From NCBI GenBank assembly GCA_022562855.1, contig JADFON010000156.1, positions 1 to 5,553 of the forward strand: a DNA stretch of 5,553 bases, written 5' to 3'. A program made the translations under genes and the position numbers. How positions within the stretch are numbered: position 1 is the stretch's first letter; each line of letters starts with the position of its first letter. The notes under the pieces are model-generated. The model had not been told where the DNA came from and did no database searches. It saw only the letters and a list, made by a program, of their open reading frames with translations. This DNA comes from Candidatus Zhuqueibacterota bacterium. GTDB lineage: Bacteria > SM23-31. Of the stretch, positions 1 to 5,553 are shown one piece after another.

Positions 1-1218
1 GAGGGTTTTTCGTGTCGATACGACTGAAGCGTCTCCTTGAGAGGACGTTTGCGAAAATCCAGGTAAATCTTCCGGTTTTATGATCGATTGTGCGCCAAGC
101 GCAAATGCGCGTTCAATGCAGTTTTCAAGCTCTCTTACATTGCCTGGCCAGGAATATTCCATCATCATGTCCATTGCCTTTTGGTCGACCCTTTCTATCC
201 GGTTTTGGCTGCGGCTAAATTTCTTGATAAAGTGGCGCACTAATACGGGAATATCGTCTTTTCTCTCTCTTAAAGGAGGTAAGTCGATAAAAACCACATT
301 CAGCCTGTAAAATAAATCAATTCTGAATTCACCTTTGTCGACAGCTTTCAGCAGGTTTTTGTTTGTTGCGGCAATAATTCGGGCGTAAATTTTTTCGGTT
401 TCATTACTTCCAACGGGTCTTATCTCCCTTTCCTGCAGCGATCTTAATAGTTTTGTCTGCATCTGCAGAGGCAGTTCCCCTATTTCGTCGAAAAACAAAG
501 TACCGTCACCCGCCGCTTTCATCAAGCCGGTCTTTTTCTGGTGCGCTCCCGTAAAGGCGCCTTTTGTATGTCCAAAAAGTTCACTTTCTATCAGATTCGG
601 ACTGATAGAACCGCAATCGACGGGAATGAACATCTTTTTTGCCCGGCTGCCATTATAATGAATCGCCTTTGCAACCAGCTCTTTACCCGTTCCGCTTTCT
701 CCCTGGATCAATACCGTGCTATTCTGGTTTGCGACTTTTCCGATTATTGAAAACACTTGCTGCATTGGTACTGAGGCGCCTATGATGTTTTTGAATCTGT
801 GTTTATCTGATAACTGCTGCTTCAGCAATACATTTTCTTTTTTTAAATCATGAATTTCGGCAGTTTTTTCAACTTTAATAAATAATTGTTCACCATCAAT
901 CGGTTTGAGAATATAATCCGAAGCGCCAAGCTTCATTGCCCGGACTATCAACGAGACGTCCGAATGGGCGGTTAACATCAGTACGTCCGTTTTGATTTCT
1001 TTTTCTTTAATCTTTTTCAGCACCTCCAGACCATTAATATCCCCAAGCTGATAATCCAGCAATACTATGTCGCAATGGTGACTGTCGAGTATATCCAGCG
1101 CCTGTGCGCCGGAATCTGCGGTAAGAACATTAAAGCGGGTTTTGGAAAAGTAATTCTCCAACAGTAAAAGAATATCATCGTCGTCATCGACGCATAGAAT
1201 TGTGCTGTTTTTCTTCAT
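1..1218 (-). CDS. Sigma-54-dependent response regulator, NtrC class (C-terminus off the left edge)
   Basis: This is an activator of sigma-54 RNA polymerase controlled by phosphorylation from a sensor kinase, acting in the cytoplasm. The frame is open for 406 codons from the ATG at 1218 to the window edge without a stop. Residues 3-120 form a receiver domain: acidic run D11-D15, phospho-acceptor D55 in IVLLDYQ, T83 in MLTAH, and K105 in ILKP. A helical linker (about 121-140) leads to the AAA+ domain (about 144-375): Walker A GESGTGKE (173-180), the sigma-54 contact loop GAFTGA (220-225), Walker B GTLFFDEIGE (239-248), sensor I ATN (284-286), arginine-finger segment FRIDLFYRLNV (298-308) and sensor II WPGNVREL (357-364). 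All key residues are intact. The Fis-type HTH that would identify its targets is missing because the window ends. The start is supported by the receiver fold beginning immediately after it. No sensor kinase is visible; a cognate one may lie beyond the left edge. The family call is very firm; the specific regulon is unknown. Confidence 0.96.
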   Translation of the reverse strand, partial: MKKNSTILCVDDDDDILLLLENYFSKTRFNVLTADSGAQALDILDSHHCDIVLLDYQLGDINGLEVLKKIKEKEIKTDVLMLTAHSDVSLIVRAMKLGASDYILKPIDGEQLFIKVEKTAEIHDLKKENVLLKQQLSDKHRFKNIIGASVPMQQVFSIIGKVANQNSTVLIQGESGTGKELVAKAIHYNGSRAKKMFIPVDCGSISPNLIESELFGHTKGAFTGAHQKKTGLMKAAGDGTLFFDEIGELPLQMQTKLLRSLQEREIRPVGSNETEKIYARIIAATNKNLLKAVDKGEFRIDLFYRLNVVFIDLPPLRERKDDIPVLVRHFIKKFSRSQNRIERVDQKAMDMMMEYSWPGNVRELENCIERAFALGAQSIIKPEDLPGFSQTSSQGDASVVSTRKTL

Positions 1219-1692: not shown

Positions 1693-4203
1693 ATGCACAA
1701 AGCGCTGATAAAATATTCATTCTTCATTTTTATTGCCGGGATGCTATTGAGCGTCGATGTAAAGGCGCAACCTGATAGAAAATTCAATACAGCTAATCTT
1801 CAAATCGCGTTGCAGAAGTTTAATGTTCTCGGCAGCGTTCTCTATGTTGCGGCGCATCCGGATGACGAAAACACCGCCGTTTTGGCTTACTTATCCAGGG
1901 GCAAAAAATACAGGACCGCCTATCTCTCCGTTACGCGCGGTGACGGCGGACAGAACCTGATCGGACCGGAAAAAGGGGCTCAGATCGGGATAATCCGCAC
2001 CCAGGAGCTTCTTGAGGCACGAAAAATCGATGGAGCATCGCAGTTCTTCACGCGCGCTATAGATTTCGGTTATTCAAAATCCCGGTTAGAAACACTTGAA
2101 TTCTGGGGCAAGGATAAAATTTTGTCGGACATAGTCTGGATTATAAGAAAGCTTCAACCAGATGTAATTTTAACCCGTTTTTCTACAACCGGATCAAGCG
2201 GTCATGGTAATCACACAGCTTCCGGCTCATTAATACAAGAGGCGTTCGACGCAGCGGGAAACCCTAACATGTTTCCGGGACAGTTGGCGTACGTTGAGCC
2301 ATGGCAGGCAAAGAGATTATTCTGGAACAGCGGAGGCTTTGGCAGGAGGGGTGGAGGCAGAGGCGGTGCAAACAGCGGTTCAGTCAGGGTCAATATCGGC
2401 GAATACAACACACTGCTTGGTAAATCATATACTGAAATTTCCTCGGAAAGCCGGTCAATGCACAAGAGCCAGGGGTTCGGATCATCGGGCAGACGCGGCG
2501 AAAATTTCGATTCGTTTTCACTTGTCGACGGTGACCCGGTCAACAATAATTTATTCGACAGTATCAATACGTCATGGTCACGGGTTCCCGGCGGACAAAG
2601 AACCGGAGAAATAATGAACGGCGTAATTGCCTCATTCGATCCGTTAAACCCTTCCGGATCAATTCCACAACTGCTTGAAGCATACAGCGAACTGAACAAA
2701 CTCGATGAGAGTTATTGGGTGACCATAAAAAGACAGGAACTATTACAAATTATTCAAGCAAGTGCGGGACTCTGGATTGAAGCGATCGCAAACAACTTTT
2801 CGACCACACCGGGTGGCAGCTTCCAGGTGCGTACCACAATTGTAAACAGGTCGAATTTTCCTTTTACCGTTGAAAAAATCAGTTTTCCGGAAATTTCATT
2901 TGAGTCGGTTGAAAATATTCCCATTAGCAATAATAACCCGGTATCGATGAACAAAACGGTTCGAATTCCCGGCGATATTCCAATCTCTCAACCGTACTGG
3001 CTCAGGGAAACCCCGACGATCGGCGCTTTTACGGTCTCTGACCAAAGAATGATCGGACTGCCGGAAAATCCCCCTGCAATCACTGCGAATATAACCTTAC
3101 GGGGGGGAGGGGACAATATATTGGAATATTCCATTCCGGTTAAATACCGGTGGACCGACCGGGTAAGGGGGGAACTATACCGGAATATTGAAATCCGACC
3201 CGAAGTCACGCTTAATTTAGAGAACAACGTTGAGATATTTTCAAATGGCGGCGCAAAGGAAATAAAGGTAACTATCAAAAATAACACTTCGAATATTTCC
3301 GGAAATGTCAGACTTAACGGACCATCCAATTGGAGAATAAGCCCGGCGTCGATTCCTTTTTCAATTGCAGGCAGGTATGGCGAATCCCAGGTGACCTTTA
3401 ACGTAACCCCTCCAAATTCTTCCGGGGATGCAACCATAACGGCGGAGGCTGTCGTCGATGGAAGATCTTATGACAGGGCTATGGTAGAAATCGAATATTC
3501 ACACATCGGCAATCAAATTTTGTTTCCGGCAAGCAGTTTTAAAGCTGTGAAAATAAACCTTGAAAAAAGGGGAAGTAAAATCGGATATATAATGGGATCC
3601 GGGGACGAAATACCTGAAGCGTTACGTAACATCGGGTATGTAGTCAGCTTGTTAGATGACGAAGCGCTTGAGAGTGAGGATTTTTCCCAATTTGACGCAA
3701 TCGTTACAGGGGTAAGAGCTTACAACACACGTGAGAGACTGGTGCAGGTAAAATCCAGACTTATGGATTACGTAAACAGCGGCGGTACACTCGTTGTTCA
3801 GTATAATGTCACCAGAGGACTGTTAACACGGGATATTGGACCGTATCCCTTTACTATTGGGAGTGAAAGGGTTAGCGTAGAAGACGCTCCGGTTACTTTT
3901 ATGAATGCAGCTCACCAATTGCTGAATTTTCCGAATAAAATCACACAGGAAGATTTTGGCGGTTGGATACAGGAACGCGGTCTTTACTTTCCTTCACAGT
4001 GGGATGAACGGTATGAAACTGTTATTTCAAGTCACGACCCGGGCGAATCGGACAAGAAAGGGAGTATCCTGTTCACAAAGTTTGGAGACGGCGTCTTTAT
4101 TTATACCGGAATTTCATGGTTCAGAGAACTGCCCGCAGGTGTACCGGGCGCTTTTAGAATATTTGTCAACATGATCTCGGCGGGGAAATATAATGGCAAT
4201 TGA
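1693..4203 (+). CDS. Exported PIG-L (LmbE-like) family deacetylase with C-terminal GATase-like domain
   Basis: This is a predicted zinc-dependent N-deacetylase of the PIG-L/LmbE/MshB family, acting outside the cytoplasm on an unknown N-acylated (probably sugar) substrate. From the ATG at 1693 it has 836 residues. A signal peptide spans 1-25: basic MHKALIK, a hydrophobic core, and cleavage after VKA before Q26. The zinc site is AHPDDE (54-59; H55 and D58 as ligands, D57 as base) together with HGNH (H174), and the family motif TRGDGGQN is at 81-88. A Gly/Arg-rich tract (214-226) interrupts the catalytic region. Beta-rich segments follow, including one NEW3-like sandwich at about 506-600. Residues about 625-830 resemble a class I glutamine-amidotransferase/ThuA-like fold. 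The protein contains no cysteine, so that last domain cannot use a Cys nucleophile. The frame extends upstream to a TTG at 1603, but this would put 30 polar residues before the signal peptide; CGGAG at 1677-1681 supports the ATG at 1693. The small membrane gene follows directly. The family is certain; the substrate is not. Confidence 0.93.
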   Translation: MHKALIKYSFFIFIAGMLLSVDVKAQPDRKFNTANLQIALQKFNVLGSVLYVAAHPDDENTAVLAYLSRGKKYRTAYLSVTRGDGGQNLIGPEKGAQIGIIRTQELLEARKIDGASQFFTRAIDFGYSKSRLETLEFWGKDKILSDIVWIIRKLQPDVILTRFSTTGSSGHGNHTASGSLIQEAFDAAGNPNMFPGQLAYVEPWQAKRLFWNSGGFGRRGGGRGGANSGSVRVNIGEYNTLLGKSYTEISSESRSMHKSQGFGSSGRRGENFDSFSLVDGDPVNNNLFDSINTSWSRVPGGQRTGEIMNGVIASFDPLNPSGSIPQLLEAYSELNKLDESYWVTIKRQELLQIIQASAGLWIEAIANNFSTTPGGSFQVRTTIVNRSNFPFTVEKISFPEISFESVENIPISNNNPVSMNKTVRIPGDIPISQPYWLRETPTIGAFTVSDQRMIGLPENPPAITANITLRGGGDNILEYSIPVKYRWTDRVRGELYRNIEIRPEVTLNLENNVEIFSNGGAKEIKVTIKNNTSNISGNVRLNGPSNWRISPASIPFSIAGRYGESQVTFNVTPPNSSGDATITAEAVVDGRSYDRAMVEIEYSHIGNQILFPASSFKAVKINLEKRGSKIGYIMGSGDEIPEALRNIGYVVSLLDDEALESEDFSQFDAIVTGVRAYNTRERLVQVKSRLMDYVNSGGTLVVQYNVTRGLLTRDIGPYPFTIGSERVSVEDAPVTFMNAAHQLLNFPNKITQEDFGGWIQERGLYFPSQWDERYETVISSHDPGESDKKGSILFTKFGDGVFIYTGISWFRELPAGVPGAFRIFVNMISAGKYNGN

Positions 4204-4225
4204 TAGTGACAACAAGGATGATACC

Positions 4226-4339
4226 ATGGAAGAACCGCCACCGTTTTTTTCGTCATGGAATAAACTCTATTCGTTGGTATTTCTGAATTTAGTTGTCCTT
4301 ATCGTCCTGTTTTATGTATTTACGAAATTTTTTGATTAA
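4226..4339 (+). CDS. Small single-pass membrane protein between deacetylase and symporter
   Basis: The frame encodes a 37-residue protein from the ATG at 4226, or 48 residues from an ATG at 4193 that overlaps the deacetylase end by 11 bp. AAGGA at 4214-4218 lies 7 bases before the 4226 ATG, an ideal ribosome-binding spacing; the 4193 ATG has only GGGGA at 4182-4186. The shorter form is therefore preferred. It begins MEEPPPFFSSW, then NKLYSLVF, and a hydrophobic stretch of about 17 residues ending in LFYVFTKFFD. This is the layout of a cytosolic Pro-rich head followed by one membrane helix close to the C-terminus. From memory, similar short proteins with a PPxFxSW head and an LFYxFT tail occur beside SSS symporters in FCB-group genomes; this was not checked by search. 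A role as a small partner of the symporter, by analogy with other two-part sodium symporters, is inference. An ordinary gene caller could miss it because of its length. Confidence 0.75.
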   Translation: MEEPPPFFSSWNKLYSLVFLNLVVLIVLFYVFTKFFD

Positions 4340-4403
4340 TCGATTTTTGGGATTTTTATATTTCTTTCATCTACGTGTTTACTATCATAAAATTATCAAG
4401 GCA

Positions 4404-4447
4404 GAGATTGCCACGTCCTCCGCTTTACGGATTCCTCGCAATGACAG
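4404..4447. repeat. Interspersed palindromic (REP-like) repeat unit
   Basis: The unit opens with GAGATTGCCACGTC and closes with CCTCGCAATGACAG. Outer arms ATTGC (4407-4411) and GCAAT (4438-4442) pair, and an inner stem TCCG/CGGA closes a CTTTA loop (4419-4431). The GAGATTGC...CTCGCAATGAC pattern resembles a dispersed repeat class found in intergenic DNA of many bacterial genomes, usually as inverted pairs; that comparison is from memory. Only one good unit is present here, so dispersal in this genome cannot be shown from the window. Confidence 0.6.
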
Positions 4448-4464
4448 AAAGGTGTTGATAGTAC

Positions 4465-4553
4465 TTCTAAATAATGAACTGTCATTTTCCCTTAAGAGAT
4501 AACCACATGACGAGCGAAACCGAGACCCCCCCCTAATAAGGTGTTATTTAGAA
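4465..4553. repeat. 10-bp inverted repeat pair flanking a 69-bp segment
   Basis: TTCTAAATAA (4465-4474) and TTATTTAGAA (4544-4553) are exact reverse complements. The segment between them contains CTGTCATT (4479-4486), which pairs with AATGACAG (4440-4447) of the preceding repeat, then GAGCGAAACCGAG and a C8 run. It may be the decayed second half of a paired palindromic element, or chance pairing in AT-rich DNA. The right arm ends 8 bases before the symporter start and could hide its translation start region in a transcript hairpin. Confidence 0.4.
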
Positions 4554-4561
4554 TTTAGCTT

Positions 4562-5553
4562 ATGAGCGCAATTGACTGGATTGTATTAAGTTCATTTATA
4601 TTGTTTGTCGTTCTCTACGGGATATGGAAGACTCGCGGCAAAAAGGATATTAAAGCCTACCTTCTCGCGAATAGAGCAACCCCCTGGTATGCCGTAACGC
4701 TTTCGATGATGGCAACGCAGGCAAGCGCGATCACATTCCTGTCCACACCCGGTCAAGCGTATGATGACGGAATGAGGTTTGTACAATTCTATCTTGGTGT
4801 TCCGTTAGCAATGATCATTCTCTCCGCCACTGCGGTTCCAATTTTCCATAAATTAAAAGTCTACACTGCGTACGAATACTTAGAACAGAGGTTTGACCTC
4901 AAAAACCGTATTTTGGGGAGTGTCCTGTTTCTTGCACAAAGGGGATTAGCTGCGGGTTTCACGATCTTTGCGCCCGCTCTTATCATTTCTGTTCTCCTCG
5001 GATGGAATATCAACCTTACGATATTCATTATTGGCGGGCTTGTGATAACATATACCACAGTCGGAGGCACCGATGCGGTCAACAAGACCCATCTGCTGCA
5101 GATGATAATCATTACATTTGGAATGGCGTCGGTAGTCCTGATAATCTTTCGATTGCTGCCGCCGGATATATCCTTTCTCGATGCCACGACCATCGCCGGA
5201 AAAATGGGAAAACTGAATGCGATAACGTTTGATTTTGATTGGCGTGACCGGTATAATATCTGGTCGGGTTTGATAGGGGGTACGTTTCTCGCCCTTTCCT
5301 ATTTTGGCACCGACCAGTCGCAGGTACAACGGTATCTTGCGGGCAAATCGATAGCCCAAAGCAGGATTGCATTGCTGGTAAACGGTATCGTAAAAGTCCC
5401 GATGCAGTTTATCATATTATTTATCGGAGTAATGGTGTTTGTTTTTTACCAGTTTGTAACCCCTCCACTGTTTTTCAACTCGGTAGAAACGGATAATGTC
5501 AAGTCCAGCGTTTATTCCGCCGAATACCGGAACCTGGAAAACGAATACGAACT
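4562..5553 (+). CDS. Sodium/solute symporter, SSS family (C-terminus off the right edge)
   Basis: This is an inner-membrane transporter of the SSS (SLC5-like) family that uses the Na+ gradient for uptake of a small solute. The window shows 330 complete codons without a stop; full members are usually 500-600 residues. The ATG at 4562 is the first possible start after an in-frame TAG at 4556-4558; no good Shine-Dalgarno site precedes it. Visible features are a first helix (about 5-22), a helix with ATQASAITFLSTPG (51-64) matching the broken first core helix of the family, a helix pair at about 118-165, TVGGTDAVNKTHLLQ (166-180) matching the family GGxxAVxxTDxxQ signature, a helix to about 197, FGTDQSQVQRYLA (248-260) matching the DQ-VQRY signature, and a helix at about 270-298. 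After this comes a polar stretch rich in Glu, Asn and Tyr (from about 304) that runs off the window, probably a loop insertion. The helix sequence recalls monocarboxylate/vitamin (SLC5A6/8-like) members, but the substrate cannot be assigned. It is probably functionally tied to the deacetylase and small membrane protein upstream. Confidence 0.94.
   Translation, partial: MSAIDWIVLSSFILFVVLYGIWKTRGKKDIKAYLLANRATPWYAVTLSMMATQASAITFLSTPGQAYDDGMRFVQFYLGVPLAMIILSATAVPIFHKLKVYTAYEYLEQRFDLKNRILGSVLFLAQRGLAAGFTIFAPALIISVLLGWNINLTIFIIGGLVITYTTVGGTDAVNKTHLLQMIIITFGMASVVLIIFRLLPPDISFLDATTIAGKMGKLNAITFDFDWRDRYNIWSGLIGGTFLALSYFGTDQSQVQRYLAGKSIAQSRIALLVNGIVKVPMQFIILFIGVMVFVFYQFVTPPLFFNSVETDNVKSSVYSAEYRNLENEYE

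Follow-up and report, generated by a model that had tools for sequence, protein, structure and literature searches.

A conserved single-helix microprotein encoded beside an SSS/SLC5 symporter and its proposed role as an accessory subunit

The small ORF located between an exported deacetylase and a sodium symporter in the analysed stretch of 5,553 nucleotides (the window) is a genuine protein-coding gene. Its product most probably represents a conserved accessory subunit of 33–60 aa with a single transmembrane (TM) helix, which would bind to the adjacent symporter of one SSS/SLC5 subfamily. A partnership with the symporter had already been proposed in the initial annotation and is now supported by gene linkage and purifying selection, from which we infer a physical association. 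The relevant features of the window are as follows.

1693–4203, + strand: exported PIG-L/LmbE deacetylase with an NPCBM-associated-like domain, a frequent, not obligatory neighbour; start likely at ATG 1693, with a signal peptide
4182–4186, + strand: GGGGA, likely Shine-Dalgarno sequence for ATG 4193; GGGGA/AGGA/GGAGA-like sequence at the same place in the relatives L002, L034 and L003
4193–4339, + strand: single-TM microprotein of 48 aa, proposed symporter companion subunit, based on homologues, conserved position, the predicted helix 18–47 and codon-position differences of the [10,2,15] type
4214–4218, + strand: AAGGA, fitting the internal ATG 4226 only; not favoured
4238–4273, + strand: boundary motif PPFF..W22..Y26, codons 16–27; W22 and Y26 each 97% conserved in 84 members
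4244–4333, + strand: predicted helix, codons 18–47, with the conserved face W22, Y26, V29, L33, I37, F40, T44 and F47, from AlphaFold2 (AF2) and the alignment
4340–4561, no strand: spacer of 222 nt, containing CCTCGCAATGACAG at 4434–4447
4562–5553, + strand: proposed partner, an SSS/SLC5 sodium:solute symporter truncated at the end of the contig, based on its SSF domain and solved relatives

Gene position and linkage to the symporter

The microprotein (MAIDSDNKDDTMEEPPPFFSSWNKLYSLVFLNLVVLIVLFYVFTKFFD) is encoded from ATG 4193 to the stop codon at 4337–4339, and its frame shares 11 nt with the 3' end of the deacetylase gene, which terminates at 4201–4203. An internal ATG at 4226 in the same frame would give rise to a 37 aa form. 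ATG 4193 preceded by GGGGA is the most likely start on the basis of sequence comparison, and the 48-codon form is favoured because in L002, L003 and L034, the relatives closest to the window, the first ATG of the microprotein likewise overlaps the 3' end of the deacetylase gene and has a purine-rich site ahead of it, located where the window has GGGGA (two of these relatives show GCAGGAAAAT and the other CCGGAGATAT, compared with GCGGGGAAAT at the same place in the window). The initial annotation had located the frame of 37–48 codons exactly, as overlapping or nearly abutting the exported deacetylase; its ribosome-binding site AAGGA is present in the sequence, but serves the internal ATG only.

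The neighbouring symporter starts at ATG 4562, matches the Pfam SSF model (PF00474, E 9e-23) and is of the SLC5 type, its closest solved relatives being SMCT1, NIS, SMVT, SiaT, vSGLT and SGLT; no match to it was found among plasmid records. Symporter, deacetylase and microprotein were searched in the same 247 genomes of one phylum, taken as Bacteroidota from the names of the matched MAGs, and their positions were compared. A profile built from ten microprotein sequences gave 65 matches in 64 of the 247 genomes, 59 of which lie on the same strand as the symporter and precede it by -1 to 91 nt, with junctions of -1 to 6 nt to the symporter start in 33 of the 59. The six residual matches have neither gene as a neighbour, are weak (E of 0.001 or higher) and were considered to have arisen by chance. 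The gap of 222 nt in the window is unusually long compared with the -1 to 91 nt of most relatives.

Direct inspection of the 700 bases upstream of each of the 95 symporters in this sample revealed a one-helix microprotein directly upstream on the same strand in 87 cases, including most of the genomes missed by the profile. ORFs with a TM segment were observed in 86 of the 95 upstream regions (4.7 expected from Markov shuffles of the same regions), and those also containing W-x3-Y in 78 (0.06 expected). Among 145 genomes spread over phyla, the symporter subfamily and the microprotein occur in the same six (Fisher p 9e-11). Eight of the 95 symporters (L108, L129, L130, L131, L145, L147, L151 and L156, in genomes G255, G210, G241, G233, G123, G151, G135 and G197) are devoid of an upstream microprotein, which implies that it is dispensable in some lineages; an N-terminal fusion was not seen in the stretch of these symporters inspected. 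The eight proteins are natural loss cases in which to compare what compensates for the microprotein.

The deacetylase matches the Pfam PIG-L model (E 1e-17), is weakly Mca/MshB/BshB-like and offers itself as another potential partner. The microprotein, serving for example as membrane anchor or export aid, might belong to this exported enzyme and adjoin the symporter merely as a member of a shared operon, as could be read from the overlapping or abutting genes in the window and its near relatives, from the order of all three genes at 58 of the 95 symporter loci, and from the single split case examined (L035), where deacetylase and microprotein lie together and the symporter ortholog is present elsewhere. 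However, among the 87 loci with symporter and microprotein the deacetylase is adjacent in 58, encoded elsewhere in nine and undetected in 20 at a cut-off of E 1e-50, and none of the 65 profile matches in the 247 genomes adjoins the deacetylase alone. Because the pair persists when the deacetylase is located elsewhere or absent, the genomic link of the microprotein is to the symporter and not to the deacetylase, and we regard a partnership with the latter as unlikely.

Conservation and anatomy of the microprotein family

With tblastn-type searches, homologues of the microprotein with 63% identity (E about 1e-14) were detected in two relatives belonging to the same family or class as the window, and further homologues in MAGs carrying the labels Flammeovirgaceae, Flexibacter, Bacteroidia, Aminicenantes and Vicingaceae; the microprotein is also present in the six of 145 genomes across phyla mentioned above. 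Two first-pass matches (L005 and L006) were weak and were discarded, as they resided inside large ORFs of unrelated genes. When the window is compared with its nearest relatives, the differences at codon positions 1/2/3 amount to 10/2/15, 12/2/16 and 8/3/18. In all 111 microprotein pairs compared pN is smaller than pS, and the pooled pN/pS of 19 disjoint pairs is 0.26, a ratio biased down by the choice of pairs according to protein identity. In three congeners the peptide is identical despite 10–14 synonymous differences. Homologues beside SSS symporters in related genomes and a substitution pattern of purifying selection, on which the initial annotation had made its proposal depend, were accordingly both found.

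The family is characterized by a variable hydrophilic head, followed by W-x3-Y and one TM helix with a single conserved face; PPF precedes W-x3-Y in about half of the members. The window protein conforms to this layout, having W-x3-Y, then one TM helix, and a position upstream of the same SSS subfamily. AF2 predicts a single helix for residues 18–47 with a pLDDT of about 95 in the core, in line with the one membrane helix originally annotated. Besides W22 and Y26, the residues V29 (79%), I37 (81%), F40 (84%), T44 (69%) and F47 (68%) are conserved, and the helical moment of conservation peaks at 100 degrees (permutation p 0.00035). This periodicity indicates that one face of the helix is held constant. 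Lysine and arginine residues number about 2 at the N boundary versus 0.5 at the C end, and this excess suggests that the topology is probably N-in/C-out.

The overlapping or very close symporter junctions noted above for 33 of the 59 matches would also be compatible with a leader ORF that acts on symporter expression through its own translation, by translational coupling, and not through the peptide it encodes. Such a function is very unlikely, given that amino acids are conserved (W and Y at 97%, along with one helix face), that identical peptides are maintained across 10–14 synonymous changes, and that the microprotein of L035 is not placed upstream of the symporter. A chance ORF without product would be conceivable from the short frame, the lack of a family model and the window's long spacing to the symporter. 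This reading is refuted by conservation across phyla together with purifying selection and excluded jointly by homologues, conserved position, upstream-region counts above those of shuffles and the conserved helix face; its probability is practically negligible.

Proposed role and relation to known transporter partners

The assignment as an accessory subunit is favoured because the lone helix has a constant face, the gene is tightly linked to that of a single transporter, and the two genes often overlap. In the proposed scenario, the microprotein would be made just before the symporter, often translationally coupled to it, and its helix would insert in the N-in/C-out orientation. The face formed by W22, Y26, V29, L33, I37, F40, T44 and F47 might then pack onto a peripheral helix of the symporter, and the bound microprotein might assist the transporter by stabilizing, folding or positioning it, comparable to MAP17 on TM13 of SGLT2. 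By this analogy, its contribution probably consists in stabilizing or positioning the symporter scaffold. The AF2 model of the symporter, calculated from five sequences, is of low confidence (mean pLDDT 50) and was set aside for its poor quality. One symporter (L031:6135-7829) carries a long charged mid-protein insertion at residues about 310–400, which is variable between relatives.

Symporters of the SSS/SLC5 superfamily are usually studied as lone proteins. Small membrane proteins are encoded beside several SSS symporters, namely DUF485 (YjcH with ActP), DUF997 (YhdT with PanF) and DUF4212 (with the VC_2705 family). The present family resembles them in being a small membrane protein encoded next to an SSS symporter, but those proteins possess two helices in contrast to the one predicted here (18–47), and it matches no Pfam model. 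MetS of the NSS transporter MetPS is likewise a very small protein that assists a sodium symporter; its transporter, however, belongs to another superfamily, and the microprotein matches no NCBIfam model.

The symporter small accessory protein of NCBIfam (NF045580, symport_access) is also a single-helix ORF (about 33 aa) directly upstream of an SSS symporter, an arrangement seen in four genomes. The signature MLGf...CviYGi.nWN and a different symporter subfamily distinguish NF045580 from the family described here; none of ten microprotein-carrying genomes searched contains a match to it above the 35-bit cut-off, and hmmscan gave no match. Neither Pfam nor NCBIfam contains a model matching the window protein or its family, and no match to the microprotein profile was found among PDB sequences.

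The sole relevant paper found in literature searches describes the SGLT2-MAP17 complex, in which the single helix of MAP17 contacts TM13 of SGLT2, moves with the fixed bundle and is required for SGLT2 transport (PMC10803289). MAP17 (PDZK1IP1, PF15807) and SGLT2 (SLC5A2) share with the present pair a single helix, predicted here, and an SLC5-type transporter, here as gene neighbour and putative partner. In contrast, MAP17 is eukaryotic and not an operon neighbour of SGLT2. The two families show no sequence relation, as the PF15807 model does not match the window protein and matches one of the 84 members at a Pfam E of 0.099, which corresponds to chance level.

The microprotein constitutes a previously unnamed family, while single-helix symporter partners as such are already known. 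The earlier description of an overlooked gene holds as judged against the Pfam and NCBIfam family libraries, and that of a distinct single-helix version holds for the one helix and the unmodelled family, but not for the single-helix partner as a novelty, since SGLT2-MAP17 and NF045580 are precedents. With somewhat more confidence than doubt, we further propose that such single-helix subunits are widespread in Bacteroidota and relatives, that an SLC5-type symporter depends on them for its activity or stability, and that they are an independently evolved counterpart of MAP17 assembled during translation from overlapping genes. If so, this third, sequence-unrelated family of single-helix companions would imply that transporters of the SLC5 type have acquired an additional helix on repeated occasions, and these Bacteroidota symporters may fail when expressed without the small gene. 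The adjacent bacterial gene pairs would provide simple systems to study the job of the extra helix, which is still debated for MAP17.

Further observations at the loci

The sequence CCTCGCAATGACAG in the spacer of the window occurs at four sites in this genome (none for the reversed control) and is probably a dispersed repeat, which may be the cause of the unusual spacing to the symporter. At the L034 locus (L034:3749-9127), bshC, bshB1 and bshA are inserted between microprotein and symporter, a single-locus lead that hints at a cluster linked to bacillithiol or amino-sugar amide metabolism. In the phylum sample bshC is near-universal (242 of 247 genomes) and thereby uninformative for co-occurrence. 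A second small membrane ORF is found just before the microprotein in L073, L074, L077, L085, L120 and L127; it comprises about 64–87 aa in most of them, is a longer open frame in L127 and apparently adds another small protein to the cluster of certain lineages. Finally, the minus strand of the window (1–1218) encodes an NtrC-type response regulator with receiver and sigma-54 activation domains, divergent from the deacetylase operon and a possible regulator.
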